Positions 36,052-56,211 of a DNA stretch of 64,000 nt are shown here, piece by piece. This DNA comes from Lichenihabitans psoromatis (lineage in GTDB: Bacteria > Pseudomonadota > Alphaproteobacteria > Rhizobiales > Beijerinckiaceae): assembly GCF_004323635.1 (NCBI RefSeq), contig NZ_CP036515.1, forward strand, positions 3,473,501 to 3,537,500. Direction: 5' to 3'. Within the stretch, counting starts at the first letter, position 1. Each line of letters opens with the position of its first letter. The notes beneath the pieces were generated by a model. It was given only the letters and a program-made list of their open reading frames with translations, was not told the DNA's origin and searched no databases. A program made the position numbers and the translations under genes.

Positions 36052-36059
36052 GGGGCCTC

Positions 36060-38290: not shown

Positions 38291-40248
38291 CAGCGACCAC
38301 CCTTCCGCGTGCGAAGAGCGGCGCTCGCCGTCGGCTTCAAGAAGGCCGAACCGGCGGTGGACCACCTTTGGAGTAGCTTCTCGAAGCGCGCGACGGCGTC
38401 GGAATCCTTGATGATCCCCTCCCAACCCGACGCTGGCCACGGCCCGCATCGATCGGCCGGCAAGGCTTCGAGCAGGTCGAGGAGGTTGGCCTGCAGCGTC
38501 GGATGCGCGCGAACCAGCACGGCGAGTCCATCGACGCCCGGCGGCACGGTATCGAAGGCGTCCCCGCCCATAACACGGCCCCGCAGCTCCTCGAAGACCT
38601 GCGCGGCTTCGGCCGGAACGAGCTGCTTGAGTTCACCCTCGAACGCCTGGACAGCGAGCTTCGGGCCGAGCAGCTTTTCGACTACCGCGGCGAGTCGTCC
38701 GAGGACGGAGGCCGCTCCGAAATAGTCCTTCCGATCCTTAGTCACGAACAGATAGGGGCGCAGATCGACTTCAGCCAAGGCCGGTGACAGCCGCGCCCAG
38801 GCCCGTATCGCGTCGGCCGCCTTCCACTCCGTCAGGATGGCGCTGTCATTGGAGCCCGGCACGGCGGTCGGCTTGGCGTCATCCATAGAACTGACCTTCG
38901 ACCCGGCTCGCTTCGCCTTGGAAGCTGGCTTCTCCTCCGATGCGGCGGCTTCGAGCGCCGCCAAATCTACGCAGCGGCCGTCCGGGTCGCGGGCGGCGGC
39001 GCTAGCGATCTGGTCGAACAATCTTGAGAGGAACCGTTCCGCCAGCATCAGCTTCGCCAGGACGGGCAGCTTCACCTCATCTCCGAAACCGCGTGCGAGC
39101 GCGGTCTGATGGCGTAGCAGCAGGGTGTTCAGGAAGCGTTTGATCTGCCGCGGATTGCCCTGAGTCCCGCTGGCCAAGATCGGACCAATCTGGTCGCTCA
39201 AGGTGAGCGCGTTCTGGACTTGGCCGGCCTTGTCGCCCAAGGCGGTCTTGACCGTCTGCGCGTCGAGCCCGGCGGTCTTCCAAGGCCGTTTGAGCAATTC
39301 ACGCGCGACGGTGATGAGCGCCGAGTAAGCAGGATCGTCCTCGCCCAGCTCGGCGCCGATGAGCAACAGGGTGACGTAGATGCGGGTTTCGGTCTCGCCC
39401 AAAGCCGGGATCCGGAATGGGATCTGGATCAGCTTTTCGAGATAGTTGCGCGCATAGTCGCGCGGGCCGGTCGTGTCCGGCAGCTCCGGGAAATGCTTCC
39501 GCACGGAATATTCGATCATCGCTTCATCGGCCGCGACGATGAACGCGGTGCGGGCGGTGAAGACGAACAGCCGGACGGCTTCGAGCGTTTCGATCGCGGT
39601 GTCCGGCAGGCAGCGGTCGAGATCGTCGATGAGGACGATCAGTTGTTTGATGCCCGCCTGCTTGAGCAGGTCGTCAAAAGCCTTTCGGAACGCCTCGATC
39701 TCTTCCGGTACATTTTTCGACTCTCCCGGTTTCAGCAGGCCCTGCACACCGTCGATAGCTTTGTCGTAGTTCTCCTTCGTGGCGAGTTTCGAGGGATCGG
39801 AGAAGATGCCCTTCAGCGTACCGACCACCGCGCCTACCTGGTCAGCTGTGGGGATGCCTGTGAACGCGGTAAACGCGAGACCGCCCCCGTGTCGCGCGAT
39901 CTTTAGCCAGTCGATTCGCCGGAAGATGTCTTTGACGGCTATGCCCGCCTTGGTGAGCAACGGCCGTTTTTCGATAAGGCCAGTGACGATGCCCTCGATC
40001 AGCGCGATCTTGGCGTCTTCGAATCCTTGAAAGCGCCATCCGTTGAATTTGATGCAGAGCACGTCCTCATCAGAACTAAGGCCGTTCTCAATCATCTCCA
40101 AGATGCTGGATTTGCCCGCGCCCCAGTCGCCGTGAACGCCGATCGTCACGGCGCGCTCGGGCTTTTCGCGCAGCAGCTCGATGATGGTTTTGGCGATCGC
40201 CTCATTGTTGAGGAGATCGACCTTTGTCTCATTGTCAGTGAGAATCAT
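38290..40248 (-). CDS. qatA: QatA, KAP-family P-loop ATPase of the Qat defence system
   Basis: 652-residue KAP NTPase and first gene of the qat operon. Walker A GDWGAGKSS (residues 40-48) and Walker B LIVLIDDLDR (about 203-212) are intact; the KAP-type insertion between them has weakly hydrophobic segments (GGLAFTAFTG). The C-terminal half, after a lysine-rich linker near residue 440, is helical and without known motifs. Gene order qatA-B-C-D with TGATG and four-base overlaps is exactly that of described Qat systems. A good ribosome site (GGAGG / GGGGCAGG) precedes the ATG. Confidence 0.93.
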   Translation of the reverse strand: MILTDNETKVDLLNNEAIAKTIIELLREKPERAVTIGVHGDWGAGKSSILEMIENGLSSDEDVLCIKFNGWRFQGFEDAKIALIEGIVTGLIEKRPLLTKAGIAVKDIFRRIDWLKIARHGGGLAFTAFTGIPTADQVGAVVGTLKGIFSDPSKLATKENYDKAIDGVQGLLKPGESKNVPEEIEAFRKAFDDLLKQAGIKQLIVLIDDLDRCLPDTAIETLEAVRLFVFTARTAFIVAADEAMIEYSVRKHFPELPDTTGPRDYARNYLEKLIQIPFRIPALGETETRIYVTLLLIGAELGEDDPAYSALITVARELLKRPWKTAGLDAQTVKTALGDKAGQVQNALTLSDQIGPILASGTQGNPRQIKRFLNTLLLRHQTALARGFGDEVKLPVLAKLMLAERFLSRLFDQIASAAARDPDGRCVDLAALEAAASEEKPASKAKRAGSKVSSMDDAKPTAVPGSNDSAILTEWKAADAIRAWARLSPALAEVDLRPYLFVTKDRKDYFGAASVLGRLAAVVEKLLGPKLAVQAFEGELKQLVPAEAAQVFEELRGRVMGGDAFDTVPPGVDGLAVLVRAHPTLQANLLDLLEALPADRCGPWPASGWEGIIKDSDAVARFEKLLQRWSTAGSAFLKPTASAALRTRKGGR

Positions 40249-40569
40249 CCTGCCCCGACTCCTCCCTGCGACTCGCGGCTGTTATTTCACCAGAGCTACG
40301 TGCAACACTGGCGCAACCACCGGAAATTCGCCATAAGTTCTTGTTAATCTTTCGTGATCTCCACCCCACGAAGCGTCTTTGAATATTGCCGTAACTGATC
40401 CAAAGGGCGGGCACTTGCGGCCGATTATTTAGTACTTGAGATCTCCGCTGTGGCATTACCTGGAAACATGCCGCGACGCGATCTTCGCCACCTGTCGTCT
40501 CGGGTCCGGAACAAAGACGTTGCCAACGTAATTGCCGCACTACGGCCACATGTGGCGCTGAACGCAAGC
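40249..40569. other. Intergenic region between the PHP-ATPase gene and qatA
   Basis: 321 bases with no gene I can support. It separates two minus-strand defence operons and should carry the qat promoter; the base composition is visibly more AT-rich around 40340-40440 than in the flanking genes, as expected for a promoter region. No terminator hairpin with a T-run is evident. Confidence 0.5.
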
Positions 40570-43548
40570 TCATCGCTCGAGCCTCACTCGCAGTCTTCGG
40601 GCCCGCTCGCGGAAAGCGGCCTCGCCGCCCTCCAAGATGTCACACACCGCCTTGCGGATTTCCGCGCTCTCAAGACCGCCCGACACATAGGTGATCGGCG
40701 GAAGGCCGCCCGAAGGATGCGGGCCCGCCGATGCGACGATGATCTGGTCAGCATCTGTGTTGATGACGAGGTTGGCGTTGTGCGTGACCATGATCACCTG
40801 GCGCTTCGCCTTGGCCGCGATGAACAGCGCCACCAGTTCGTCGAATACCGACTTGGGATCGAGATTCTCTTCGGGTTGATCGATGATCAACGGGCGATCA
40901 TCTGAATCATCCAGAGCAAGATAGAGCAGCAGCAGCACGATGCCCCGCGTGCCGGGCGAAAGCTTTCGGATGTCGACTCCATCATAGGAGATTTCATATC
41001 GGACGCTGATGTGCCCGGTCCCGAAGAGCCAATGCGCGAACTGCTTCGACCACGCCCGAAATTCCACCTGCTGCGTCGGCGCATATGGCGCATGGGACAG
41101 CAGTTCCCTTAGATAGCGCCCCATGAACGCCGTCATCGCCGCTTGAACCTGAGCCGCCGTGCCGGTCTCCCATGCCGATTTAAGTGCGTCTGTGGCGGCC
41201 GTAATCAGGGAGCCGCGGCCGTAGAAGGGACCGGCCTTGCGTCTGTCGAGGAGATCTTCCTCCGCGATCGAACCCCAGGCTTGGACGTCTGCGATTCGGC
41301 GAACCGAGAAGCTGAGCTTGTTAAGCGTGCCCGACGACGACGCGAGCCGTGCCAACAGCGGCGCGTAGAGGCCGGCAAGCGCGTTCTGCTCATTGATTAT
41401 CGCCTCGAAGACCCGGCCGTAGGCCTCATCCCGCTCAGCCTGAAGATCCTTCCGACGCGCGGCGGCGCCTTGCGCATCGGTCAGCCGGGTCTCGAGGGTC
41501 TGAAGCGCGGAATTCTCCTGCGCGATGCGGTTGGTCAGCGCCGTATATTGATCGCGAACCAGCTTGTCGGCGCTGAACAGCGCTTCGAGGCGGGTCATTT
41601 CCGCCACGATCGGCGCGAGCGCTAGCACCGCGAGGTCTGCACCGTCGGCAATCAGCGCGACGTTCGGATCGCCGGGCGGCGGCGGAACGCCGTTGAGCTT
41701 GCGCGCCTCGCCATCGGACCATGCGATGTAGGCCGTCAGGCTCTTATCGACGTCTCCCTTGTAGATCAGTAGGAAATCGTCCCACTGCTGGGCACTCATG
41801 CCGCTATTGCCATGTCGCGCCTGGGCCTGACGGAGCATCTCCGGTGCGCCGGTGGCGCGCGTGCTCCGAACTTCGCCCTGGAGGGCAACGAAGGTCCGGC
41901 GCTGGTTTCCGTAGGCCTGGATCTTGTTCCGAAGGCTCTGAGCCGCCTCGCTGAGTTGGGTGTGGCGAGCCACCTGCGCTTCCGTCCCCTTGACGACCAG
42001 CTTGGCGCGATCGGCAGTGTAGTCCGCAATCAGCTTCTTCTTTTGTGCCACCTGCGTAGTCAGCGGGGCGACCAGGCTTTCCTTTTCGAACTCCGACGCG
42101 ATGCGATCAGATATGTCCGAGATCGCCTCGGCTTCACGCTCGCGCGCCTGCTGGAATTGTGCGGTCTGCTGCTCTCGGAGCTCCGCAAAATCGATCGCCC
42201 ATTCGCGATCGTCTTGCGAATGCGACTCGAAGATCACCCGCTCGATCTCATCGACGAGACCGTCCGAAACGCCCTTCGCCGAGCAAAGCTCTTCGACGAA
42301 CTGCTGAGATAGATAGCGGGCACGCGGGAACGACATGTGGCCGTTGGCGTCGCGTCCGTCGAGTGATCGCGTAACCGTCGCACCGCCGCCCCAAGTGAGC
42401 GTCGCTTTTGCGTTGCCGATCAGCCCGCGCGCCCGGGCTAGGAATGATGGGCTGATGTTCTCGTCGGCTTCCCAGCCGGAAGGCGAGATTGCGTCGCAGC
42501 CCGCTGCGATCATGTCGGCCAGGGCCGTCTTGCCCGAGCCACGCGCGCCGATGATGGCGACGAGACCATGATTGAGGGGGACGTCGGGCGTGGTGGCCCA
42601 ATCCGCATTGCCGATCTGGACGTGCGAGATGACCTGCGACGGCATGGCCGAACGCGGCGGCTGCTCACCGACATAGGCGCGACCGTCGGGATCGATGCAC
42701 GCTTGCCGTAGCGCATCGAATTCGAGGCCGCCCTTGATCCACGAGAAGCGATTTCCGAATGGCGATGCCACGTCGTCGAGCCTGTGCGCGTCGCTTCCGT
42801 GCAGACAGGGCTTCAGCCCGCCATAACGCACGCGGATCTCGTCGGGCCCGAGGTCTTTCTGACCCAACCAGAACTCACGCTGCGCCGGACTGCCCGCGAA
42901 GATCACATGCGCAAAGCCCTCGATCTCGCGCCGGATAGTTTGGTCGGCAGCTTCGCGAACGCCCGACGTTCCGTCTGTGGCGCCGCCGGCGACCGCAATC
43001 AAGATGTTCTTCTTCGCCCAGGCGCTCTCCGAAAACACCTCGCGCAGCCTCTGGAAATTCACCTTGAACTGGTTTGCGCCGTAGGCGAGCGCGGCGCGAT
43101 CGTCGATGATGTCCGGATCGGCCTTCTTACCGAGGCGGATCAGGTCGGCACGGGTGCAGTCGAACCGATCCTGCATGACGTTGAACTGCAAGCGCGACAG
43201 CAGGCGCTGCAGCTCCTCAACATGGTTCGGGTCTTCAGGGCTCACGAAGAGGTGGAGATTGACGAAGCCGCCCTTGGCCGTCGCCACATCCAGCCGCAGC
43301 TCGACATTCGGGAAGACCAGCGCGGCTCTGGGCAAGCGGCCCAGCGCCTTGTGGCGGAGCACTTCCTCGTAGGTGTCCGTCACATAATAGTCGGTCACCG
43401 CGATCCCCTCGATCACCGGCGTCGCCTTCTCAAGAGCGGCCAAATAATCGTGCCACGCCGTCGGGCCGCTGAACTGATTGTTCATGGCGGTGCCGGGCGC
43501 GTGAATGTGCGGCTCCCATCGCCGCCACTCGGAACCCCTGTTTAACAT
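40570..43548 (-). CDS. PHP-domain/SMC-like ATPase, TrlF-like
   Basis: 992-residue fusion. The N-terminal PHP-type metallo-hydrolase domain has HIH (residues 14-16), Asp53, Glu83, His99 and GSDAH (251-255). An ABC/SMC-like ATPase follows, with Walker A GARGSGKT (334-341), a long central coiled-coil-like region rich in Glu, Gln and Arg (about 455-760), the signature-like LSPGTRG, Walker B LIIDQPEENLD and a switch histidine in VTHNAN. The combination matches the TrlF family of AAA-like ATPases, found mostly in mobile islands and thought to be defensive. It overlaps the upstream nuclease-like gene by seven bases. PHP domains are phosphoesterases, so it may cut nucleic acid itself. Confidence 0.85.
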   Translation of the reverse strand: MLNRGSEWRRWEPHIHAPGTAMNNQFSGPTAWHDYLAALEKATPVIEGIAVTDYYVTDTYEEVLRHKALGRLPRAALVFPNVELRLDVATAKGGFVNLHLFVSPEDPNHVEELQRLLSRLQFNVMQDRFDCTRADLIRLGKKADPDIIDDRAALAYGANQFKVNFQRLREVFSESAWAKKNILIAVAGGATDGTSGVREAADQTIRREIEGFAHVIFAGSPAQREFWLGQKDLGPDEIRVRYGGLKPCLHGSDAHRLDDVASPFGNRFSWIKGGLEFDALRQACIDPDGRAYVGEQPPRSAMPSQVISHVQIGNADWATTPDVPLNHGLVAIIGARGSGKTALADMIAAGCDAISPSGWEADENISPSFLARARGLIGNAKATLTWGGGATVTRSLDGRDANGHMSFPRARYLSQQFVEELCSAKGVSDGLVDEIERVIFESHSQDDREWAIDFAELREQQTAQFQQAREREAEAISDISDRIASEFEKESLVAPLTTQVAQKKKLIADYTADRAKLVVKGTEAQVARHTQLSEAAQSLRNKIQAYGNQRRTFVALQGEVRSTRATGAPEMLRQAQARHGNSGMSAQQWDDFLLIYKGDVDKSLTAYIAWSDGEARKLNGVPPPPGDPNVALIADGADLAVLALAPIVAEMTRLEALFSADKLVRDQYTALTNRIAQENSALQTLETRLTDAQGAAARRKDLQAERDEAYGRVFEAIINEQNALAGLYAPLLARLASSSGTLNKLSFSVRRIADVQAWGSIAEEDLLDRRKAGPFYGRGSLITAATDALKSAWETGTAAQVQAAMTAFMGRYLRELLSHAPYAPTQQVEFRAWSKQFAHWLFGTGHISVRYEISYDGVDIRKLSPGTRGIVLLLLYLALDDSDDRPLIIDQPEENLDPKSVFDELVALFIAAKAKRQVIMVTHNANLVINTDADQIIVASAGPHPSGGLPPITYVSGGLESAEIRKAVCDILEGGEAAFRERARRLRVRLER

Positions 43549-44204
43549 TTCCCCGCTGCCCCTCGCTTCTTATCGTGGGTTTGTCCCCCAGGTTCGGCGC
43601 CGTCCAGCCCAGGCGCGACATCAACGACCTCTCCACGGCTGCCAACCAGGGCAATCGCAATCCCTGCCAGGGCGCAGCGCGGGGCAAGGCGCTCGGCAAG
43701 CCGGACCGTGGCGTCGGTCTTCGGGACGACAGCGACCTGCCGGCCCGGCGATGGCGTCGCCATCAGCATGCCGACCGTCTCGCACAGCCCTTTGTAGAGC
43801 CGCGATACCTGGCCCGAATGCCGCGTGTTGATGATGCCACCCTTGCACTCGGCCGAGATGACCTGGCCACCAGCCTCCGCCACGACATCCCCAAGGCCCG
43901 ATTTGGGATTGATCGTGATCGTCTGACCATCCGCGTTTCGATAGACGCCGCCATACGAAGTGGTCCCAAGCGTCGACACCATCGAGAAGCCGCGGCGCGA
44001 CAGCCAACCGGCGAAGTCGAACTGCTTTCCGTGCTCGCCGTCGGGATGCACGCGGACATCACGCGCGCCCTCTGTGCGCAGCAGATGCATGGCATAGGCA
44101 ACCATCACCGCGCCCTCGTAGAGGTGGTGCTCATGTTCGCCGTCCGCCTTTCCAACGCGGTTCGGCGGCGGCGCAAGCGCCGTCACAAGGTCGTCAAAGT
44201 CCAC
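43542..44204 (-). CDS. PD-(D/E)XK-like nuclease partner of the PHP-ATPase
   Basis: 220-residue protein that I identify only by motif. The segment GLGDVVAEAGGQVISAECKGG has Asp106, Glu119 and Lys121 with the D-(12)-E-x-K spacing of restriction-endonuclease-fold enzymes, followed by a helix that could complete the active site (HSGQVSRLYKGLCE). An N-terminal helical part is rich in histidine and glutamate (DGEHEHHLYEG). It is the first gene of a two-gene operon with the PHP-ATPase (seven-base overlap), so ATPase and nuclease are likely made in fixed ratio. The family name is unknown to me. Confidence 0.7.
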   Translation of the reverse strand: MDFDDLVTALAPPPNRVGKADGEHEHHLYEGAVMVAYAMHLLRTEGARDVRVHPDGEHGKQFDFAGWLSRRGFSMVSTLGTTSYGGVYRNADGQTITINPKSGLGDVVAEAGGQVISAECKGGIINTRHSGQVSRLYKGLCETVGMLMATPSPGRQVAVVPKTDATVRLAERLAPRCALAGIAIALVGSRGEVVDVAPGLDGAEPGGQTHDKKRGAAGKC

Positions 44205-44300
44205 GTTGGCCTCCCCGTCGCGACGACGCGCGAGCCGTCGTCATCGCCATTGACAGTCCCTTATAACCGGCCATATTTGCCCGGTAAAGGAGGCCCAGTC

Positions 44301-44855
44301 ATGATTGCCTATAATCCAGATAAGTTTGGGTCGCTCTATAAGACCGACCTGGGCCAGCGCCTCTGGGGGTTTCTGACCGAAGAGCCGAATATCGCGCGGC
44401 TGGAAACGGCCTCGCAGCTCGGCAAGCCGGCCGTTGAAGGGATTGAAGAGCACCTTCTGGACGCGTTTCGCGAGGACGTGCTGGCCGACCGCGTCAAGCA
44501 GATGGTCGGCCATATGGTTCGCCAGATTTTAGAACAGCGCGATTGGGTCCTCGACCAGACCGATGTGAAGGTCCAGTCCGTGCCATTCAGCAAGGCGGCC
44601 CGCTACCGGCGGGCCGACTGGATTACATTTCACGCGTTTCGCAATACCAGCGACCCGCGCGACGTCGTCATCACAGATCGCCGCCAGAACGCGCCGCTGC
44701 CCGCCGACGCCCGTTGGACCTACTACGCGACCTTCGCGAGCCCGTTGAAGGCGTCAGTGGCGTTTGGCGTGCGTGACATTCGGCAGCTTCGTCAGCATGT
44801 GCATGCGCACGGCTATCAGCGCATGCGCATCGAGCGGATCTTGCGACGTGCCTAA
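44301..44855 (+). CDS. Hypothetical protein, first gene of four-gene defence-like operon
   Basis: 184-residue protein without a family I recognise. It is soluble; the N-terminal half is helical (DLGQRLWGFLTEEP, KQMVGHMVRQILEQRDW) and the C-terminal half is beta-rich, with many aromatic and basic residues (RYRRADWITFHAFRN, RWTYYATFA). The ATG at 44301 follows AAAGGAGG; the frame is open far upstream but that is a shadow of the opposite gene. It starts a run of four plus-strand genes spaced by 14 bases or less, and is divergent from the nuclease/PHP-ATPase operon with 96 bases between, where both promoters must lie. Confidence 0.7.
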   Translation: MIAYNPDKFGSLYKTDLGQRLWGFLTEEPNIARLETASQLGKPAVEGIEEHLLDAFREDVLADRVKQMVGHMVRQILEQRDWVLDQTDVKVQSVPFSKAARYRRADWITFHAFRNTSDPRDVVITDRRQNAPLPADARWTYYATFASPLKASVAFGVRDIRQLRQHVHAHGYQRMRIERILRRA

Positions 44856-45463
44856 TGCCGATGCCCGATCACCCGCACATCGCGCTCAGCGACCGCGAAG
44901 AGCCCGTGCTGCTCGCCTGGCCGACGCAAGGCAATGCTGGCGGCTTCATTCAGTTCGAGAAGGCGGCGGACTGGCGCGCCTTCGTTGAGAGCCTCGGCAT
45001 CGATCCGCGTATCCCCGAGATCGTGCGCGCCAAGTTTGCCCGTGCGCAGACGCTCTATCTGCTGGGCTGGGCGGATTTCAGCGTCATCAAGGCTGGCGAG
45101 CTCGCCGCCCTGATCGCACTGGAGCTGGCGCTGATGGATCGCTATGGCGGCCGCCTCTCGAAGAACAAGCGAAGCTTCGCGGCGTTCCTGAAACACATGG
45201 TCGAGGTCGACGGTCTCACCGACGCGCAGATTCCCATGGTCGTGCGCTGTGGAGGAACGGCATTAGGTCAGTTGACCGGCGACACACGTCCGACCCTTGC
45301 CGAGCGTCGAAACGCTCTGGCCCACGGCGATCCGTTCGATGGACTGCCAACGGGCGGTCTCCTTGAACTGGCCCGCGACCTCATCAATTTCGCCTACCGC
45401 CACTACATCGCGGAGGCCGCGGGCCTCGGCCTACATCCAACCACGACAGGACGAGCCCAATGA
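44855..45463 (+). CDS. HEPN-like protein (202 residues)
   Basis: Mostly helical protein with the HEPN ribonuclease-type motif R-x4-H in RRNALAHGDPF near residue 153, in the usual place late in the helical bundle. HEPN proteins with this motif are RNA-cutting effectors of abortive-infection and toxin systems, although the motif alone does not prove activity. The first 70 residues resemble no family known to me. The start overlaps the previous stop (TAATG), and the end overlaps the next gene by four bases. Confidence 0.68.
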   Translation: MPMPDHPHIALSDREEPVLLAWPTQGNAGGFIQFEKAADWRAFVESLGIDPRIPEIVRAKFARAQTLYLLGWADFSVIKAGELAALIALELALMDRYGGRLSKNKRSFAAFLKHMVEVDGLTDAQIPMVVRCGGTALGQLTGDTRPTLAERRNALAHGDPFDGLPTGGLLELARDLINFAYRHYIAEAAGLGLHPTTTGRAQ

Positions 45464-46776
45464 CGGCGAGTACGTCGCTCATTGCCGCCATGAGCGCGGT
45501 CTGGCGACTTCCCCGGCCGGGCCCGGACAACCTTCTGGCCTCACCGCCCTTCGTCGCGCTGAGCGAGCTGTGCCTCGCGGAGTACGGCGGTGGCAAACCG
45601 GTATTCGCTTTGAGCACTGCCCTCCGCTCACTGGGGCTGCCGTGTCATCTCCCTGCCAACAAGGCACCATTGAGCCTCGATCCCGAAAGCGCCGCGAATG
45701 CGCTAGACGACGCATATCGGCGCAGGACGACGCTGCGCCGCCATCTATGCCCGCTCGACCTGGCGGACGAGATGCCTATGTTGAGCTTCGGCAATGCCCG
45801 CGTCGCGGACTTCACCGCGGATGATCTGGCGCGGCTGTTCAACGCCCCGCGCCTCGCCCGCAACTTTCACAATGAGTCGCTCGATCCTAAGCGCTTGGCG
45901 CAGTTCCGATGGCTGGTTGTGGAGGAAGAAATCGCGCTCGACCCGCGCCCTGAAGCACGCGCCGCCCCGTTCATGTACATGACACTCGATCGGGATTTCG
46001 GCGAGATCGATCCCCATCTCGGTCGCTTTCCGCCGGCGGTCGAACGAGCGCTGTTCTTTCTCCTGCTGGCGCCATGGGAACGGTGGTCCACGATGCAGGA
46101 GGTCGACTGGCGAGGCTTTCGCTTGCCTTGGATTTACACGGCCGACGACGACCTCTTCATTCGCCCGTCTCCACCCCCGAGCGCGGATAGCCTCACCCTT
46201 GAGCCATGGATCGTCCAGGATCAGTGGGGAGACGACATCGAACTCGAACGTCCGACCGTCTTACGACTCGATGACGACGCGGCGTCGGGTCTGGCGCTCT
46301 TCACCGATGATGCTTGGAAAGAGCTCGAGGGGGCACGGGCAACGGACCTGTTCGAGACGCCTATCGCGCATTTTCTTGTCCGGGCCTTCCTCGCCGATGG
46401 CATGGACGAGGTCATGGCGCACATGACGGCCATCGAAGCTGCCGTCGGCCTCGAGATGGACCACAAGAAATGGCTTCGGCCGAAACCTGACCCGCACAAG
46501 GCGGTTTCGTCAGCCACGGATCGCGTTGCGGCACGCGTCGCGGCTGTCTTGAACGACGCCACAAGCGTGCAGGCCTACAAGGAACTCTTCGACCTGCGCA
46601 GCGCCTTCGTTCACGGCCGCACTGGGCTCCAGAAGATGTCGACCAAGCAGCGCGTCATGGCGCGCAGCCTGGCGCGCGGAGTAGCCCGCGGCCTGGTCGA
46701 CCTGGCGCTCAAGGGGCTGCGGCCGCGTGCAGACGTACTGAGCGACCTCCTCACGCGAGGCGCACCCTACTTGTAG
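45460..46776 (+). CDS. Protein with C-terminal Apea-like HEPN domain
   Basis: 438-residue protein. The C-terminal about 150 residues are helical, with LFDLRSAFVHGRTG, the R-x4-H motif in the form typical of Apea-type HEPN domains. The N-terminal 280 residues are of unknown fold, acidic and rich in aromatic residues (YMTLDRDFGEIDPHLG, WERWSTMQEVDW), and could be the sensing part. Two adjacent HEPN genes with overlapping ends suggest a complex or an effector/inhibitor pair. Confidence 0.7.
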   Translation: MTASTSLIAAMSAVWRLPRPGPDNLLASPPFVALSELCLAEYGGGKPVFALSTALRSLGLPCHLPANKAPLSLDPESAANALDDAYRRRTTLRRHLCPLDLADEMPMLSFGNARVADFTADDLARLFNAPRLARNFHNESLDPKRLAQFRWLVVEEEIALDPRPEARAAPFMYMTLDRDFGEIDPHLGRFPPAVERALFFLLLAPWERWSTMQEVDWRGFRLPWIYTADDDLFIRPSPPPSADSLTLEPWIVQDQWGDDIELERPTVLRLDDDAASGLALFTDDAWKELEGARATDLFETPIAHFLVRAFLADGMDEVMAHMTAIEAAVGLEMDHKKWLRPKPDPHKAVSSATDRVAARVAAVLNDATSVQAYKELFDLRSAFVHGRTGLQKMSTKQRVMARSLARGVARGLVDLALKGLRPRADVLSDLLTRGAPYL

Positions 46777-46790
46777 GCCCTCAGGGCAGA

Positions 46791-48200
46791 ATGGTCCGAC
46801 CGCGAATGGCTGCCGAAACAGAGTCTCTCCTGATCAAGCCCATCAGCGTGCGGCAGTTCGAGCTGTACGCCCTGTCGCTCGACCGTGGCCCGAACTTCGA
46901 CCCCGCAAGCATTTGCGCCGCATATCAAGTCGGCCGCGGCGGTGCCTGTGGCGGGATTCTCCTCGACCAGGAGACCGGGACCTTCAGCACGGTCGCTTTG
47001 CGACGCCGGGTCGATCATTGTTGGACCGGCGTCGCAAAAAGCGGTCCGTTCCCGGCGCCCGAACAGGCCCTCGACGCGCTCAGCATCGGCATGCGCGGCG
47101 GTGATCCGCCTGAACCGCTCGCACCTGGGGTCCGCCGAAGGCCTTTGTTGATCGAGGTCGGGCCGCGTGGAAGCTCCCCGGAGTTTGACTTGCTCATCAA
47201 GTCCATGAGTCATCTGCCGGCGCTGATGGCGGTGGGAGAGTGCTATCTCGCCCTGCCGCGGCCAGATCGGAACTTCATCCCCGATTTGCAGACCAACAAC
47301 TTCGCGTCGCGGCTCTTCGAGCTTTACCTGCTGGCCTGCTTTCGTGAGCAAGGCCTGCAGGTCCGCCAAGATCACGTCTCGCCCGATTTTCAAATCGAGA
47401 AGGACGGCATGACATGTTGGGTGGAAGCGGTGACCGCGAACTCCGAAACCCCGCGCGCTGGCGGCATCGGAGATTGGGTTCATGCGCCTACGGATCGAAC
47501 GGAGCGGCTCACCGGCGCCCCGGCTGAACGCTTCGCCAAAACGCTGCGAGGAAAGTTGCAGCGGGAATATCACGACCTGTCGCACGTGCAGGGGCATCCG
47601 TTTGCCATCGCCATCGCGGATTTTCACAGCTCCGGCTCCATGGTGTGGAGCCGGGAGGCACTGCCGACCTATCTCTACGGTGTTCGCGCCGATGTCGAAG
47701 ATGACGGCACGAAGCGACGCGCGGTCGGGACGGCGATATTTAATCTCACGGGCAAGAACGCGATCCCGGCCGGACTGTTTCGAGACCCGGACTTCGCGCA
47801 TTTGTCCGCCGTTCTCTTCAGCAACGCCGGCACCTTGGCAAAATTCAACCGTATGGGCTTTTTGGCCGGATGGCGTCCGCCCGGCCTGTCGATGATCCGT
47901 CGGGGCATCTTGTTCGATCGGACGCCGGGCGCGTTGGAACCGATCGACTTCGAGCTAGAAGTGGGAAGCCAAGAGTACGACGCACTATGGCCATGGGGCG
48001 AAGCCTGGTGCCAGGAACTCGAGGTCTTTCACAACCCGCTCGCCTCCCATCCCATTCCGTTCGACCTGATCCCTGGCGCGACGCATTGGTTCGAGCGCGG
48101 CGGCGAAGTGGAATGCAGCACGATTTGGGCGAACTCGGTGATTTCATCGGTCACCCAGCTTCGAGCGCCAAAAGGCTATTATCCCGCGGCAGAAGCATAG
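46791..48200 (+). CDS. Nuclease-like protein, last gene of HEPN operon
   Basis: 469-residue protein. The middle carries a restriction-endonuclease-like pattern: Glu177 in RLFELYLLACFRE, Asp199 in SPDFQIE and Glu212 in WVEAVTAN. The expected lysine of the E-x-K motif is not conserved (the position reads Val-Glu-Ala-Val), so it may be a degenerate or variant nuclease. The N-terminal 160 residues and the tryptophan-rich C-terminus are unknown. It begins 14 bases behind the HEPN gene and converges with the caspase operon. Confidence 0.62.
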   Translation: MVRPRMAAETESLLIKPISVRQFELYALSLDRGPNFDPASICAAYQVGRGGACGGILLDQETGTFSTVALRRRVDHCWTGVAKSGPFPAPEQALDALSIGMRGGDPPEPLAPGVRRRPLLIEVGPRGSSPEFDLLIKSMSHLPALMAVGECYLALPRPDRNFIPDLQTNNFASRLFELYLLACFREQGLQVRQDHVSPDFQIEKDGMTCWVEAVTANSETPRAGGIGDWVHAPTDRTERLTGAPAERFAKTLRGKLQREYHDLSHVQGHPFAIAIADFHSSGSMVWSREALPTYLYGVRADVEDDGTKRRAVGTAIFNLTGKNAIPAGLFRDPDFAHLSAVLFSNAGTLAKFNRMGFLAGWRPPGLSMIRRGILFDRTPGALEPIDFELEVGSQEYDALWPWGEAWCQELEVFHNPLASHPIPFDLIPGATHWFERGGEVECSTIWANSVISSVTQLRAPKGYYPAAEA

Positions 48201-48253
48201 GCGCGCGAGAAACGCTGCGAAGCGAAGCGTTGGGGCGCAAACTCCGTCGTTGC

Positions 48254-48901
48254 CTAAGCTTGTTCGCCCTTTCGCGTGATGAATCTAAATTCTGTTTGCC
48301 CAGCTTTGGCCGCCAATTCGAACCATTTCTCACGGTAGTCCGGCAGCTCTGCTCGACTTACAGCAATAGTGGAGAGCGCCGAACAATAGGCGATCCCGGC
48401 ATGGACTGTTTCGCCGACATAATTGAGAAAGCGCGTCAGATCAGCTGGGTAAGCAAGGTCGGTGTCACTCTCGAAAACCTTGTGTCGCTCGCCATCGACG
48501 AAGGTGTTAATCGCGGTTTCCAGAACCGCGTAGCTCAAAAACGCATCCGCCCCTGCGTCTTGCATGGCGAGCACCGCGTTCAGCTCAGGACGCCATTCGA
48601 TCGCTTTCCGGCAAAGCGCCGGATTAACGTGGCCGACGGCAATGTTTCGCATGTACTTCGCGAATTCGAACCCCCGCCGATGTGTTGAGATGATCTCATT
48701 TAGCTCCGGTTGATCCTTGTAGAGTCCGCGGCTTATCCCCTCCAGGTCGGCGACATTCGCGCACGAAACGAGCAATTGCTTTAATAGGACCAAACGGATG
48801 GCGTGATCTTCCGGCCCGGCTTCCAGCGCCTTATCCGCAGCAACGAGATCGCCATGTGCGAGCCGCGCCGAAATCGCAATCTGGATGAAGTCCAAATCCA
48901 T
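48254..48901 (-). CDS. HEPN-like helical protein downstream of caspase gene
   Basis: 215-residue all-helical protein without a recognised family. KYMRNIAVGHVNP near residue 85 has an R-x5-H motif of the sort seen in HEPN-fold abortive-infection proteins. The start is the ATG at 48901, 32 bases after the caspase stop, so it is the third gene of the minus-strand operon. It could be a substrate, partner or inhibitor of the caspase; nothing in the sequence decides this. Confidence 0.6.
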   Translation of the reverse strand: MDLDFIQIAISARLAHGDLVAADKALEAGPEDHAIRLVLLKQLLVSCANVADLEGISRGLYKDQPELNEIISTHRRGFEFAKYMRNIAVGHVNPALCRKAIEWRPELNAVLAMQDAGADAFLSYAVLETAINTFVDGERHKVFESDTDLAYPADLTRFLNYVGETVHAGIAYCSALSTIAVSRAELPDYREKWFELAAKAGQTEFRFITRKGEQA

Positions 48902-48933
48902 TCGTCTGCTCGCTCTCTTGATCGGCGACTACA

Positions 48934-50520
48934 CTATTCGTCATCGTCGCGGTTGACCCGCCCTGTTGCAGGCCCAGCCAGCATCGGGCTGGATCGACCG
49001 ACGCCCAATTGGAACCGCCGCGCCGCATCGACAAGGTCGAGGGCACTCTTGCGTCCGAAGGCAATTTCCAGACGCCGCTTTTTCAGGTCGAAGGTGAAGC
49101 TCGCGCCGTCCCGACTGTAAGTCACGCGCTGATCGCGATCATCGTCGTCCACATCGCCACCGGACGATTCACCGATATCCTCCAGCCGATCAACCAGCGC
49201 ATCGAAGGAGTCCTCCATGCTGTCGAACTGCACCACCAGCCGCTGGAACTCGTCCGAGAAAAGTTCGTCGAGCGCCTCGCGATGCGCCGCCCAGCCTTGC
49301 CGAAGCTCGAGCCGTCGCGTGATGTAATACTCGCTCGGGTCCTCCGGATTCTGACCTGTCTCGACGATATAGCGGAAAGCAGGCGCATCGAGCGTGTCGG
49401 CCTCCTTCCTGAGATCCTTGCGCTTGAGGCCGAGGACATCGCGCGCATTTTGGTAGAGGGTTTGCAACTCCTCCGCGACCGTGTTGGCAAGCAGTCGATT
49501 GCACCAGCCGTCGGCCGACTCCGACAGCCGATCGGGCACCTTGTGATATCCGCGGCTGAAGCCGTCGAGGCTCCGGATTGCCCCTGTCTCGGTTCCCTCC
49601 AGATACTCGCTGTTGTTCTTCAGCCGGATGCCTGCAAGCGCCGCGTCCGCAGGTATGGCGGGCGGTTGCGCCACATAGTGGATCCGAAAGCTGTTCGATG
49701 CGGACAAGATGGCCTGGGGCGTCTGAGTCGCCCGCATCGACATCTCTCGGGTGATGTAGCGCGGCACTTCCTGGCGCAGATAGTTCTGCAAGCTTTCGCC
49801 GGTCAGCCAACGATCGCGTGCGAGCGCGTCGGGTGCGCGACCTTCAAGCGCTTCCAGCAGAAAGTGCGTCCAGATGCCGTGACCCAGCGCGTTTGACGGG
49901 TAGGACTTTTCCCCCGGCGAGCATGACAGGAAGGCGCCAAGATACCAGCCGCTATCGAGAAATTCTTCGACCTCGTCAGGGTCAAGGTTCCCGATCACGT
50001 CCCGCGACTGCACGACGTCGCGGAAGGGCTCGGCGCACGCGTCGATGAAGATCAGCGCCTGCTCACACGCGCTCTGGGACAAGGGCTCCAGCAGCGCATC
50101 GCGCATCGAGAGCGTCGTATCGGCGATGTTGAGGCGATTGGTATCGTAAGTGCTGAGGCGGTTCCCACCCGCGCCATGGAAGCCGTGCCCTGCGTAGTAA
50201 AAGACGAAGAGGTCATCGGCCGAGAGGTTGCGGATCGTGTAGCCCAGATAGTCCTGAACGGCGGCCAGGCTGGCGTCGGCGTCGGTCATCAGCTCAATCT
50301 CGACATTGTCCGCCGGCAGACCCTTGAAGATCTCCTGCACCGCCTCACTCACCGCGTCGGCATCCGCATGCGCGAACGCCACCGACGGCAGCGCGTCGCC
50401 GCTCTTCGGCTTGCGATAATTCTCAAGCCCAACGATCACGGCCACGACCCGCGTGAAGCGCGGTGCTGTGGGATCCTCGTCAACTGGCCGGGTCGGCGCC
50501 GGCACGGGTTTGCGCGCCAT
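48934..50520 (-). CDS. Caspase-like (peptidase C14) protein
   Basis: 528-residue protein with an N-terminal caspase fold. The catalytic histidine is in YYAGHGFHG (His112) and the catalytic cysteine in FIDACAEP (Cys162), both in the correct order, so it is predicted to be an active protease. Residues about 270-528 are a helical, highly acidic region (SSGGDVDDDDRDQR) of unknown role. The ATG at 50520 has GAGGAGA upstream; a GTG directly before it is the alternative. Bacterial caspase-like proteases serve as death effectors in several anti-phage systems. It lies 12 bases behind an AAA/DUF4143 ATPase gene. Confidence 0.85.
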   Translation of the reverse strand: MARKPVPAPTRPVDEDPTAPRFTRVVAVIVGLENYRKPKSGDALPSVAFAHADADAVSEAVQEIFKGLPADNVEIELMTDADASLAAVQDYLGYTIRNLSADDLFVFYYAGHGFHGAGGNRLSTYDTNRLNIADTTLSMRDALLEPLSQSACEQALIFIDACAEPFRDVVQSRDVIGNLDPDEVEEFLDSGWYLGAFLSCSPGEKSYPSNALGHGIWTHFLLEALEGRAPDALARDRWLTGESLQNYLRQEVPRYITREMSMRATQTPQAILSASNSFRIHYVAQPPAIPADAALAGIRLKNNSEYLEGTETGAIRSLDGFSRGYHKVPDRLSESADGWCNRLLANTVAEELQTLYQNARDVLGLKRKDLRKEADTLDAPAFRYIVETGQNPEDPSEYYITRRLELRQGWAAHREALDELFSDEFQRLVVQFDSMEDSFDALVDRLEDIGESSGGDVDDDDRDQRVTYSRDGASFTFDLKKRRLEIAFGRKSALDLVDAARRFQLGVGRSSPMLAGPATGRVNRDDDE

Positions 50521-50532
50521 CACGCGTTCTCC

Positions 50533-51810
50533 TCAAGATATTCGCGTTCCACGCGACGCCCCCTTGCCCGTCTGGTTCGTGGGTGCCTCTCCATCCCAGA
50601 GGCTCGACAATGGCGCCGCTGCCAGCCTGTCGCCGAACGGCACGACGTCCGTGCTGTCGTAAAGGACGACGCCGAAGGCAAAGCGGTCTCCGCAGGCCTC
50701 GGCCAAGGCCCGCAGGCCGCCGAAATCACTGGCTTTGACCGTGGCGCTCGCCTTGACCTCGATGCCTGCGATCATCCCGTCATCGCGCTCCAGCACGATG
50801 TCCACCTCGCGCTTATCGCGGTCGCGGAAATGGTGCGGCGTCAGCCGCAGGTCCGAAGCCGTCATCAGCTTCAGCACTTCCGAGAACACGAAGCTCTCCA
50901 GCAGCGCGCCGAACGTGCCGCGATCAGCCTTCACCCGGTCGAAGGTCAGCCCGCGCACGCTCGCCAGCAGACCGGAATCGAGGAAATGCAGCTTAGGTGT
51001 CTTGACGATGCGCTTCAGCGCGTTCGTGAACCACGGCTGCAACGTGGCGATCAGGAACACCTGTTCGAGGAGCGCGACGTAACGCTGCCCCGTCTTGTGG
51101 GTCACGTTGATACCGGCGCCGAACTGCGAATAATTGACCAACTGGCCGGAGTGCTCGGCCAGCAGCCGCACGAATTTCGGAAGCTCGGTCAGCTTCTCCA
51201 CATCGGCGATGTCTCGCAGATCGCGGGTCAGAATCGAGGTGAGGTAAGATCGCAACCAGTCCTGCCGCCGGCGCTCGCTGTCACGACTGATCGCTTCGGG
51301 GAAACCGCCGAGCAGGGCGAGTTGGACGAGATCATCGCCAATAATCGCGCCGTGTTGGCTCTGGAGTTTTCCGTCGAAGAGGCGCTCGAGAAACGAAGGG
51401 TGCCGACCTTCGATTTCGGCCTTGGCAAGCGGCAGCATCTGGATGGTCTCCATCCGGCCAGCCAAGCTGTCTGCGATCCGCGGAAGGGTCAGCACATTTG
51501 CCGAGCCGGTCAGCAGAAATCGGCCTGGGCGATAGTCCTCGTCGACCGTCTTTTTGATCGCCAGCAGCAGGTCCGGCGCGCGCTGGATTTCGTCGATGAT
51601 GGCCCGGTCCAGGCCCCGGATAAAACCGGCCGGATCGGACTGGGCGGCCTCGAGCACGGTCTGATCGTCGAGCGTGATATAAGTTCGGCCGGTCTCCCCC
51701 ATCTTTCGGACGAGCGTGGTCTTCCCGGCCCTGCGCGGTCCCACGATCAGGACGACAGGCGTATCTGAAAGGGCTTCTTCCGCCCGCCGCTCCACAAACC
51801 GTTCGAACAT
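50533..51810 (-). CDS. AAA_14/DUF4143 family ATPase
   Basis: 425-residue P-loop ATPase with an N-terminal AAA domain (Walker A GPRRAGKTT, Walker B AIIDEIQRAPD) and a C-terminal DUF4143 domain with a restriction-endonuclease-like core (DKREVDIVLERDDG and IAGIEVKAS, that is Asp then E-x-K). The family is widespread in accessory DNA, with unknown roles, some probably in DNA restriction or maintenance. I chose the ATG at 51810, which follows GGAGAAGG; the ATG at 51855 would add 15 residues. It is the first gene of the caspase operon and may act as its sensor (inference). Confidence 0.85.
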   Translation of the reverse strand: MFERFVERRAEEALSDTPVVLIVGPRRAGKTTLVRKMGETGRTYITLDDQTVLEAAQSDPAGFIRGLDRAIIDEIQRAPDLLLAIKKTVDEDYRPGRFLLTGSANVLTLPRIADSLAGRMETIQMLPLAKAEIEGRHPSFLERLFDGKLQSQHGAIIGDDLVQLALLGGFPEAISRDSERRRQDWLRSYLTSILTRDLRDIADVEKLTELPKFVRLLAEHSGQLVNYSQFGAGINVTHKTGQRYVALLEQVFLIATLQPWFTNALKRIVKTPKLHFLDSGLLASVRGLTFDRVKADRGTFGALLESFVFSEVLKLMTASDLRLTPHHFRDRDKREVDIVLERDDGMIAGIEVKASATVKASDFGGLRALAEACGDRFAFGVVLYDSTDVVPFGDRLAAAPLSSLWDGEAPTNQTGKGASRGTRIS

Positions 51811-51983
51811 GCCTTCTCCGAATCCCGGACAATCGGGACTATGGGTATCGGCCAATTGGGAGTCAACGGTCCGCTAATTGGGAGTTTGTGGGCCGCTATT
51901 TGGAGAGCCAAGAGGGGAATGCCTTCCCCCTGGTCGCCGCCGCTGTCACCGACGCACCCCCTTCTGCGGGGAGTCCCCGCAAC

Positions 51984-52060
51984 GCCCCTTTGAGAGTGAG
52001 AGGGCGGAGGGCTTCGCTGTGACGGGTTGAGGGCTGGAGGAGAGGCCTCCGGCGCCCGTC
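51984..52060 (+). ncRNA. Structured 5' leader A, before the DUF932 gene
   Basis: A 77-base segment shared with 53352-53429. It starts GCCCCTTTGAG and contains AGAGGGCGG, a TTCG-type small hairpin, and a long terminal hairpin with outer stem GACGGG (52021-52026) / CCCGTC (52055-52060) and inner stem GCTGGAGG (52033-52040) / CCTCCGGC (52046-52053). GGAG follows two bases after the stem and is nine bases before the ATG. Base pairs differ from leader B but pairing is kept, which is good evidence for a functional RNA. I cannot give it a family name. Confidence 0.75.
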
Positions 52061-52075
52061 ATGGAGTTTGGTCTC

Positions 52076-53269
52076 ATGAATATGCAAGTCCTCGACGCGC
52101 GCCGCGATAACGACGGCGGCTACTCGGTGGATGTGAGCCGCGGTGAGCGTATCGGCCGCGTATCGTCGGAATGGTTCTCGCGCCCCGCCGACGAGCGCTA
52201 TCTATCGTTATCCGACCTGGCTCAAACGGTCCGCGACCGCGCCGATCGGAGCCGAACACGCGTGGTGGAAAGCGCCCTTATCCACGTCGAGGCGAACCGC
52301 GACGACCCGGAGCGGTTGGCTCTGATCCTGCCAGGCACGGACACGCCTGTTGCGCCGACACACTGGTCTTTCGGCCAGCTCGCCAGCCTGGTCGGTGCGC
52401 CGGCAGCCTACCTGCGGCAGCTTCCGGCCGCGCTCGCCGGCATCAACCTACAATATGGCCTGACCTCCAATCGCGCCGAGCAGATCAAGACGCTCGAAAC
52501 CGACACCGGGCGGGTCGAGCTGCGCGCCGTCACCGGCCCGGATTATGGCCGCATCTTCGATCACGAGCTGGTCGAGGCCGTACAGCGCATCGCAGGCAAC
52601 GGCACCGGCGATACCCGCTGGAAGGTCCCGGGCGTGCTCGACTGGTCGACCGGGATCTACAATCCCCGCGTCGACATCAGCAAGGATACGACCACGCTCT
52701 ACGCCTCGGATCGTGACGTCTTCCTGTTCCTGGTCGATGACCTGAACCCGATCGAAGCCGGGCGCCTGCCGGACGGCTCGCCCGATTTGTACTTCCGCGG
52801 ATTCTATTGCTGGAATTCGGAGGTCGGCGCCAAAACGCTCGGCATGGCGAGCTTCTATCTTCGCGCCGTCTGCCAAAATCGAAACCTCTGGGGCGTGGAG
52901 GATTTCGAGGAGATCACCATCCGCCACTCGAAATATGCCGCAAATCGGTTCGCGCATGAAGCAGCCCCGGCGCTGCTGAACTTCGCCAACTCCTCGCCCA
53001 TGCCGTTCGTCAACGGCATCAAGGCGGCCCGTGAGCGGATCGTCGCAAAGACCGATGAGGATCGCACCGACTTCCTGCGTCGTCGCGGCTTCTCGAAGGC
53101 GGAATCCGGGAAGATCATCGACGCAGTGCTGGGCGAGGAAGGCCGCCCGCCCGAGTCCATCTTCGATTTCGTACAGGGCATCACCGCCGTCGCCCGCGAT
53201 AAGCCGCATCAGGACGCCCGCCTCGACCTCGAAGCCAAGGCGAAAAAGCTGCTCGACCGAGTCGCCTGA
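52076..53269 (+). CDS. DUF932 family protein
   Basis: 397-residue protein of the DUF932 (phage/plasmid-like) family. The typical middle part is visible (LPGTDTPVAPTHWSFGQLA, PDYGRIFDHELVEAVQ, FRGFYCWNSEVGAKTLGMASFYLRAVCQNRNLWG). The function is unknown; such genes travel with ParB-like and antirestriction genes in plasmids and islands. The ATG at 52076 is supported because GGAG-N9-ATG lines up exactly with the leader and start of the ParB gene; the ATG at 52061 lies inside that alignment as part of the ribosome site. Confidence 0.88.
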   Translation: MNMQVLDARRDNDGGYSVDVSRGERIGRVSSEWFSRPADERYLSLSDLAQTVRDRADRSRTRVVESALIHVEANRDDPERLALILPGTDTPVAPTHWSFGQLASLVGAPAAYLRQLPAALAGINLQYGLTSNRAEQIKTLETDTGRVELRAVTGPDYGRIFDHELVEAVQRIAGNGTGDTRWKVPGVLDWSTGIYNPRVDISKDTTTLYASDRDVFLFLVDDLNPIEAGRLPDGSPDLYFRGFYCWNSEVGAKTLGMASFYLRAVCQNRNLWGVEDFEEITIRHSKYAANRFAHEAAPALLNFANSSPMPFVNGIKAARERIVAKTDEDRTDFLRRRGFSKAESGKIIDAVLGEEGRPPESIFDFVQGITAVARDKPHQDARLDLEAKAKKLLDRVA

Positions 53270-53277
53270 CATCAGTG

Positions 53278-53311
53278 AAGCCGGAGACGCGTTTTTACGT
53301 GTCTCCGGCTT
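53278..53311 (+). terminator. Long hairpin after the DUF932 gene
   Basis: A 14-bp stem with one G-T pair (AAGCCGGAGACGCG / CGTGTCTCCGGCTT) and the loop TTTTTA, eight bases behind the DUF932 stop. Only TTGC follows the second arm, so termination may be partial, letting some transcripts enter leader B. Confidence 0.7.
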
Positions 53312-53351
53312 TGCGCTTCCGTGTCCTTCCGGCCCTCCGATCCGAAACGCT

Positions 53352-53429
53352 GCCCCCTTTAGAGGAAGAGGGCGGCGCTTCGCTTCGTGACGGGTTGGAG
53401 GTCGAGAGAGAGTCTTTCGGCCGCCCGTC
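53352..53429 (+). ncRNA. Structured 5' leader B, before the ParB gene
   Basis: Second copy of the leader at 51984-52060: GCCCCCTTTAGAGG, AGAGGGCGG, CTTCG, then the terminal hairpin with outer stem GACGGG (53389-53394) / CCCGTC (53424-53429). The inner 10-bp stem 53400-53409 / 53413-53422 uses other bases than copy A, with a C-G pair changed to G-C and a G-C changed to C-G. GGAG-N9-ATG follows, as in copy A. Confidence 0.75.
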
Positions 53430-53444
53430 GCGGAGTATCATCCC

Positions 53445-55061
53445 ATGGCGACTACAGTTCAGAAGATCACACTCTCGCCTTCGCGCGACATTCCCTTCAA
53501 CAAGCTCTTGCTCAGCCAATCGAACGTCCGGCGCGTGAAAGCCGGCGTCTCGATAGAGGAGTTGGCTGAAGACATCGTCCGCCGCGGCCTATTACAAGGC
53601 CTCAGTGTCCGGGCCGTCAACGATCAGGCCGGTGTCGAGACCGGCATGTTCGAGATCCCCGCCGGCGGCCGGCGCTACCGGGCGCTTGAGCTGCTGGTGA
53701 AGCAGAAGCGCCTCGCCAAGACCGCGCCGGTGCCCTGCATCGTTCGCGACAGCGGCATCGCGGAGGAGGATTCGCTCGCTGAAAACGTCCAACGGGCGCC
53801 GCTGCATCCGCTCGACCAGTTCCGAGCCTTTCTGGCGCTGCGCGAGAAGGGCCAGTCCGAGGAGGAGATCGCCGCCGCGTTCTTCGTCTCCGTGAATGTG
53901 GTGAAGCAGCGCCTGAAGCTGGCGTCGGTCTCGCCGGCACTGCACGATGTCTATGCCGAGGACGGCATGACGCTCGATCAAATGATGGCCTTCACCGTAT
54001 CGGGTGACCATGAGCGTCAGGAGCAGGTGTTCGAACGCCTGAAGGCTTCCCACGACAAGCAGCCCTATGTCATCCGCCGCATGCTGACCGAAGGCGCGGT
54101 CCGTGCCTCCGACAAGCGGGCACAGTTCATCGGGGTGGACGCCTATGTGGCAGCGGGCGGCACAGTGCTGCGCGACCTGTTCCAGGGCGATGATGGTGGA
54201 TGGCTGCAGGACGTCGCGCTCATCGATCAGATGGTGGGCGACAAGCTGAAGGCGGACACCGAGACGATCGCCGCCGAAGGCTGGAAGTGGATCGAGGTCG
54301 CGCCCAACTTCGCCTACGGCCATGCCTTCGGTCTGCGTCAGCTCCGCGGCGAGACCGTCGCGCTCACGCCCGAGGAGGACGCAACCCGCGAGGCGCTCCA
54401 GGCCGAGTTGGACCGGCTCTCCGACGAATATCAGGACGCCGATGAACTTCCAGACGAGGTGGACGAGCGCCTGTCGGAGCTTGAAACAGCGATCGAGGGC
54501 TTCGAGAGTGGCCCCGTGGTGTTCGACGCCGCCGAGGTCGCCCGCGCCGGCGCCTTCGTAAGCATCGGCGCCGAGGGAAAGCTTCGCGTCGAACGCGGCT
54601 ACGTCCGGCCCGAGGACGAGTTGGCGGCTGAACAGGAGTCCGGGCTGCCCGCGGATGACGACCACGAGCGCGCCGTGCTCGCCAACTACGAGGGCGTCGA
54701 GCCTGCCGTGACGGCCGAGCCGGAAGCCGAGACGGAGGAGGACGAAGGTCTTTCGCCCATCTCCGACCGACTGATGACCGAGCTGACCTCGCACCGGACG
54801 CTGGGCCTGCGACATGCGCTCGGCGAGCGGCCGGACATCGCCTTCCTCGCGGCCCTGCACGTCGTGACGCTCAAGACCTTCTACCACTATGGCTCGGATA
54901 GCTGCATGGAACTGGACCTGAAAAGCGTCAGCTTCAGCGCCCAAGCGCCGGGGCTGAACGACAGTGATCGTCCCCCCTTGAAGTGGTCCATCCCGATGTA
55001 TGGCTTTCGAGCCTGGAGGATGGATCGATGGGAAGACGACCGAAGCCTGAAGAGATCGTGA
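53445..55061 (+). pseudogene. ParB/RepB/Spo0J family protein, 3' end replaced by IS element
   Basis: ParB-family DNA-binding protein of the plasmid/island type. It has the N-terminal ParB nuclease-like domain (LSQSNVRR, GGRRYRALELL, LAENVQRAPLHPLDQ), then a helix-turn-helix (EEIAAAFFVSVNVVKQRLKL), then an acidic linker. The native frame ends at 54964, where the IS element begins; the last 32 codons (from about SDRPPLKW) are IS sequence. Members of this family usually continue for roughly 150 more residues, so the C-terminal domain is lost and does not reappear on the other side of the IS. Whether the shortened protein still works is unknown. It is preceded by RNA leader B. Confidence 0.85.
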
Positions 55062-55303
55062 GCAAGCTGCGTCAGGTCGACGTGTTGGTCTCACAGGGGA
55101 AGACCGTTGCGGACTCGGTTCGCTCGATCGGGGTGACCGAGGTCACCTACTACCGGTGGCGGAAGGAGTTCGGCGGCTTGAAGCTTGACCAGGTCAAGCG
55201 CCTGAAGGAGCTGGAGACGGAGAACATGCGGCTTCGCAAGGCGATCGCCGACCTCACGCTCGACAAGCTGATTCTGAAGGAGGCGGCCTCGGGAAACTTC
55301 TGA
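55028..55303 (+). CDS. IS3-family transposase OrfA
   Basis: 91-residue N-terminal transposase protein with a helix-turn-helix (KTVADSVRSIGVTEVTYYRWRKE) and a leucine-rich C-terminal helix (LKELETENMRLRKAIADL). The ATG at 55028 is preceded by GGAGGATGG. Its last codons contain GGGAAAC (55291-55297), a classic -1 slippery heptamer in the right phase, so ribosomes can shift into orfB. Confidence 0.92.
   Translation: MGRRPKPEEIVSKLRQVDVLVSQGKTVADSVRSIGVTEVTYYRWRKEFGGLKLDQVKRLKELETENMRLRKAIADLTLDKLILKEAASGNF
55291..55297 (+). promoter_or_regulatory. Programmed -1 frameshift site of the IS element
   Basis: GGGAAAC in orfA phase G-GGA-AAC, six bases before the orfA stop. A -1 shift leads straight into GKLLSPARRRVC and the orfB frame, with no stop between. 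Confidence 0.75.
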
Positions 55304-55335
55304 GCCCCGCGCGCCGGCGCGTCTGCATCGAGCAT

Positions 55336-56208: not shown

Positions 56209-56211
56209 CAA

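Follow-up and report, generated by a model that had tools for sequence, protein, structure and literature searches.

Four genes of Lichenihabitans psoromatis, here called p1 to p4, look like a mix-and-match anti-phage cassette on a mobile island and not like one fixed four-part system. They occupy positions 44301..48200 of the window, which is the whole 64,000-nucleotide stretch that was analysed (contig NZ_CP036515.1, positions 3,473,501 to 3,537,500). One promoter-like block precedes the four nearly contiguous genes, and the genes around p1 and p3 are swapped between genomes. The unit extends past 44301..48200, as the block (44250-44293) and a divergent gene (43542-44204) accompany p1. Its parts are as follows.

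43542..44204, minus strand: p5, PD-(D/E)xK-like, divergent from p1
44250..44293, plus strand: conserved promoter-like block upstream of p1
44301..44855, plus strand: p1 (gene 1, the head gene), 184 amino acids
44855..45463, plus strand: p2 (gene 2), 202 amino acids, with a HEPN-like R-x4-H motif (R152...H157)
45460..46776, plus strand: p3 (gene 3), 438 amino acids, with a C-terminal R-x4-H motif (R380...H385)
46806..48200, plus strand: p4 (gene 4), PD-T7-1 family, nuclease-like

A promoter-like block and head gene precede differing cargo

The block consists of TTGACA (44250-44255), CATATT at a 16-bp spacing (44272-44277) and the ribosome-binding-like sequence TAAAGGAGG (44285-44293). We collected 25 loci in which p1 was near-complete, its alignment beginning at residue 1 and reaching residue 178 or beyond. 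In all 25 the 24-base core TTATAACCGGCCATATTTGCCCGG (44261-44284) was present with no more than four mismatches, 39-40 bases upstream of the p1 start, and TTGACA and AAAGGA were kept across 17 distinct aligned intergenic stretches. The L. psoromatis genome itself has a single site for the block at up to three mismatches. At locus L033, 86 of the 184 p1 third codon positions differ from the window and yet none of the 24 core positions does, which argues that the block is under constraint. The p1 coding sequence right behind it shows 77-97% identity. The gene that follows p1 differs: it was a nuclease-like gene (c17) at 16 loci, p2 at five, p3 at one and another gene at three. The divergent gene p5 accompanied p1 in 23/25 loci, with 87-100 bases between the two starts where both were measured. 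This sharing of a block before p1, with differing cargo behind, is a new observation here.

By eye, an inverted repeat, ACCGG-N10-CCGGT, spans the -10-like site; an operator role for the block is a guess, since the repeat was found by eye and one of its arms is broken in four loci (L026, L029, L042 and L063). We found no copy of the block upstream of p1 relatives that were distant or partial, the 11 rows inspected having 10-14 mismatches of 24. No known family matched p1, and a comparison with the PDB gave four weak matches (best expectation value, E, 0.087) that we took as noise. Its two parts, N-terminal (about residues 1-104) and C-terminal (about 112-184), are also found separately. On plasmids, genes distantly related to the N-terminal one adjoin PP2C phosphatase genes (L071:1-6327, L132 and L133), and in L071 TerD/TerY-type genes lie nearby too. 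In p5, the residues E30, D63 and E119-C-K121 were invariant in 17 sequences, a motif pattern suggestive of a nuclease fold; no Pfam family scored above its cut-off.

The genes adjoining p3 are exchanged between genomes

A scan of the genome collection for p3 yielded 66 loci. The order p1-p2-p3-p4 was intact in two of them, L002 (Rhodopseudomonas rhenobacensis) and L003 (Gluconacetobacter diazotrophicus), both with 95-97% protein identity to the window; because of this closeness the two may represent one recently spread element. On a plasmid of Agrobacterium rubi we found p1-p2-p3 with the same overlaps, followed by a fragment of p4. Locus L004 has p1-p3 alone, without p2 or p4, and in L142 p1-p2 is followed by a gene for a 908-residue protein that matched AAA and Cap4 nuclease weakly, below the cut-offs in both cases.

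When the gene abutting p3 upstream was recorded for 70 loci, it encoded a TIR-domain protein in 23, a HEPN-like protein (c15) in 15, p5 in five, p2 in four and p1 in one, the other 22 having another gene or none; a partner gene thus stands directly before p3 in 48/70 loci. At 11 of the 15 c15 loci, c15 is itself preceded by p2. The arrangement with TIR typically carries a Lit-like gene, p4, c17 and p1 on one strand. On the other strand lie p5, TIR, p3, AbiE-like genes, a GajA-like gene and a gene that we take to be UvrD-like, the label being ours and the gene not having been scanned. Gabija-like GajA, AbiE-like genes and Lit-like genes are the defence neighbours seen in relatives. On an Agrobacterium Ti plasmid, a p3 relative lies right behind a TIR-domain gene (L069:4865-7314).

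The original prediction suggested that the four genes could be a new anti-phage module and proposed a genome search for their order. That search was run, and the order is largely not conserved; the pairing of p2 with p3 does recur. By eye, 14 p2/p3 pairs lay on records of equal length among the best 120 of 735 and the best 120 of 693 matches, and the pair in Labrys okinawensis has consecutive locus tags. We rejected a fixed four-gene system, as partners swap among the 70 p3 loci and the 25 p1 loci. Searches of viral contigs gave no relatives of p1, p2 or p3 and no exact match to the block, only exact-pattern candidates having been tested, and no near-identical DNA was found in the plasmid collection.

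One 20-kb defence region recurs with equal identities and spacings in L044-L048 and L064, under records named Afipia, Bradyrhizobium, Bradyrhizobiaceae and Sphingorhabdus. It reflects either very recent spread or contamination.

The four reading frames are real genes

Since all four have relatives and changes concentrate at third codon positions, p1-p4 are, on the sequence evidence, real genes and not chance open frames. Between the window and L003 the differences at codon positions 1/2/3 were 5/3/28 for p1, 6/4/16 for p2, 16/6/50 for p3 and 12/6/55 for p4. Against the A. rubi plasmid they were 15/6/72 for p1, 24/22/98 for p2 and 74/46/220 for p3. The layout stood in part as first described: four genes lie on the same strand, joined by TAATG at p1/p2 and by a four-base overlap, ATGA, at p2/p3. 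The 14-base gap given for p3-p4 becomes 29 bases if p4 begins, as is probable, at 46806 and not at 46791. A TGA stands one codon on from the first ATG of p4 in L003, a close copy, where the open frame starts at 11347, and two p4 relatives begin at the later point.

p2 and p3 carry R-x4-H motifs

The two neighbouring R-x4-H motifs in overlapping frames are present as described, RRNALAH in p2 and RSAFVH in p3. Motif conservation was counted after removal of sequences at least 90% identical. In p3, R380, H385 and G386 were strictly invariant in 124/124 non-redundant sequences with identity down to 32%, while just 70 of the 438 positions were conserved at 97% or more. In p2, R152 was invariant and H157 conserved at 97% or more (65 sequences). 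These motifs make an RNase of the HEPN type a likely identity for gene 3 and a plausible one for gene 2. HEPN domains typically work as RNase dimers (PMC13092281).

The "Apea-like" label first attached to gene 3 found no support in Pfam: none of 22 aligned p3 members matched PF18739 (ApeA) at E ≤ 1, and we rejected membership of that family on this basis. PF18739 gave three sub-threshold matches in 12 genomes or records, p3 among none of them. Source databases do name some p3 homologues "Apea-like HEPN".

p4 is a PD-T7-1 family protein

The PADLOC profile for PD-T7-1 matched p4 over its full length (E 1.7e-83; residues 16-457 on profile positions 2-446 of 452). E177, D199 and E212, numbered from the start at 46791, were invariant in 10 sequences, and the usual Lys is replaced (E-A-V-T), giving a variant PD-(D/E)xK-like site. 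The fourth gene is thus nuclease-like, as originally proposed, and belongs to a known defence family. The defence role of PD-T7-1 is given in an excerpt of Vassallo et al (2022; PMC9519451), and the family is tabled under PD(D/E)XK nuclease in part of a review (PMC10952713). Calling the four-gene operon unrecognised is thus correct only in part; p1, p2 and p3 have no family match.

A proposed modular defence operon and its alternatives

On balance we think that the four genes form a modular defence operon in which the promoter and head gene stay and the effectors are exchanged, with p3 as an RNase, p2 as its partner and p4 as an independent nuclease. The fixed head would be the promoter block and p1, usually opposite the divergent p5, and would drive an exchangeable cargo of defence genes, which here would be the p2-p3 pair and p4. 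Once infection is sensed, p3, as a HEPN RNase, may stop growth or destroy RNA. Until triggered by a phage, the HEPN-like p2, translationally coupled to p3, could keep p3 inactive or complete the active site of p3. p4 would act separately as a nuclease of the PD-T7-1 type, and p1, a small protein, might regulate its own promoter. More tentatively, and in our view probably going too far, p1 and the block could act as a shared sensor-regulator that, with the p5 nuclease, switches on whichever effectors are docked behind it, including p2-p3 as a split two-chain HEPN RNase with an active site formed by both proteins.

Several observations weigh against the modular operon. The scanned loci were picked through p3, so the context counts are biased, and unbiased contexts are few because p2 and p1 were rarely found: p2 occurred in 1/385 genomes of the class, the L. 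psoromatis genome, and p1 in 3/385 and 7/367 genomes, near full length in two and two, L. psoromatis included. Among the 70 p3 loci, 22 have no listed partner, some of these being contig ends. Seven of the 25 p1 loci (L044-L048, L062 and L064) share identities and spacings, are not independent and look like copies of one element, and a p1 match at the broken locus L066 (residues 6-179) has no block. The motif His of p2 is replaced by Tyr in four of the 10 loci read (L006-L009), which have the arrangement HNH-p2-c15-p3.

Profile searches also gave no support for the HEPN assignment of p2 and p3, which therefore rests on the motif. Neither protein had a HEPN match in Pfam, PADLOC or NCBIfam. For p2, no Pfam or PADLOC family was found in 20 members at E ≤ 10. 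For p3, none of 22 members matched a Pfam HEPN family, nor did any of five distant relatives, and its sole weak PADLOC match was CARF_HEPN (E 0.04, not significant). Profile-profile comparison, which left out translations containing internal stops and any match that spanned under 85% of the query, was no more favourable. With hhalign, no significant score was obtained against three HEPN families or a single HEPN sequence (best probability 2.9%), and p1, used as a control query, scored 23.7 against an unrelated profile versus 19.1 for p2 against its best HEPN family. HEPN_RiboL-PSP was the top-scoring of 15 profiles for p2, p3 and c15, none significantly. The profiles of p2 and p3 found no sequence relatives in the PDB, and p4 had none either.

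The strongest alternative for p2-p3, which we nevertheless consider unlikely, is a plain toxin-antitoxin pair with p2 as the antitoxin, p3 as the RNase toxin and defence as a secondary role. A small gene stands ahead of a larger one with a four-base overlap, and an invariant motif in p3 beside a replaceable His in p2 is what one would expect if only p3 were catalytic. However, the gene upstream of p3 is swapped for those of unrelated proteins such as TIR, and p2 carries a conserved R-x4-H itself and occurs beside other genes. Type II toxin-antitoxin systems consist of two small coupled genes; p2 and p3 overlap by four bases, but p3 has 438 residues and its partner is swapped elsewhere. Quite unlikely, in our judgement, is one integrated system in which p1 is the sensor, p2-p3 cut RNA, p4 cuts DNA and none of the four is dispensable. 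The intact order in the window, L002 and L003 and the overlapping frames are in its favour, the A. rubi plasmid suggests an older four-gene state, and p1 and p4 also share an operon in the arrangement p1-c17-p4. Yet most partnered p3 loci have TIR or c15 without p2, p1-p2 occurs without p3 in L142, p2 has no p3 within 12.6 kb around L073, L004 lacks p2 and p4, and p4 relatives were found in 102 plasmid records versus seven for p2.

That the block is mainly a recombination anchor for cargo exchange, rather than an operator, seems to us very unlikely. Its sequence hardly varies even where different genes follow p1, and integrative islands and plasmids carry the parts; but the block is laid out like a promoter and ribosome-binding site at a fixed distance from the p1 start, and p1 behind it is conserved too, which places the exchange points behind p1 and not at the block. 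We give very little credence to the view that the genes serve some function other than defence, as ordinary cargo of the island. p1, p2 and p3 have no tested relatives here, but p4 falls in the PD-T7-1 family and known defence families recur around relatives. If the modular operon is correct, one promoter and head protein serving many cargos would be a simple way to swap weapons with control kept, and the block with p1 would be a searchable tag for unrecognised defence genes. The p3 family, with its HEPN-like, c15 or TIR partners, would let one ask if different partners feed one RNase effector.

The genomic island

The setting in a defence island, as originally described, was borne out, with QatABCD next door. 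The island and its landmarks are as follows.

33518..62060, no strand: genomic island of ~28.5 kb between two copies of a 16-bp direct repeat
40570..43548, minus strand: TrlF-like/Ppl-like ATPase gene behind p5, its start codon overlapping the p5 end
60479-61864: tyrosine integrase gene (Pfam), beside guaA
62049-63665: guaA (Pfam), with the island at its 3′ end

The repeat is exact (33518-33533 and 62045-62060), its right copy being the end of guaA. It is not significant alone (E 0.385 among 22 matches in a genome-wide search), and the island was called because the repeat is placed at the guaA end with the integrase adjoining. The island contains QatA-D, the TrlF/Ppl-like gene, p5, p1-p4, a gene for a 215-residue protein without a Pfam match, and caspase-domain, DUF4143 ATPase and ParB_N-domain genes. 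The TrlF-like gene matched PADLOC Ppl (1e-29); in A. rubi, homologues annotated as TrlF family AAA-like ATPase adjoin p5. The DUF4143 ATPase gene is the PADLOC candidate PDC-S01. The caspase-domain gene (48934-50523; Peptidase_C14, E 3.6e-8) lies between the 215-residue and DUF4143 genes and looks inserted, because these two adjoin each other in L002 and L003. Also within the island (59755-59830), ARAGORN called an unusual tRNA whose anticodon has four bases, probably a false positive, and no Rfam RNA family matched within 43000-49000.

Comparison with known systems

A limited search of open-access literature, which is no proof of absence, found no description of a cassette headed by p1 or of a pairing of p2 with p3. 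PD-T7-1 works as a one-gene system. p4 matches the PD-T7-1 profile across 445 of 452 positions, but ends an operon with p1-p3 here and elsewhere trails p1-c17. ApeA-type HEPN defence proteins have an N-terminal part described, in an excerpt of PMC3710099, as mostly beta. Like these, p3 has a larger N-terminal part and a C-terminal R-x4-H motif; unlike them, it has no PF18739 match, and it follows a partner gene in most of its loci. The p3 partner c15 weakly resembles DRT-associated HEPN (PADLOC RTasHEPN, E 1.5e-4), but no reverse transcriptase was identified beside it, and it has G-N-A-C-R-H-G in 15/15 sequences instead of the usually spaced R-x4-H. As far as an excerpted account of modular defence hotspots on islands goes (e.g. 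Pseudomonas, PMC12629846), whole defence genes are exchanged there on integrative elements, as here, whereas in the present case the cargo seems to change behind a fixed head gene that brings its own promoter block.

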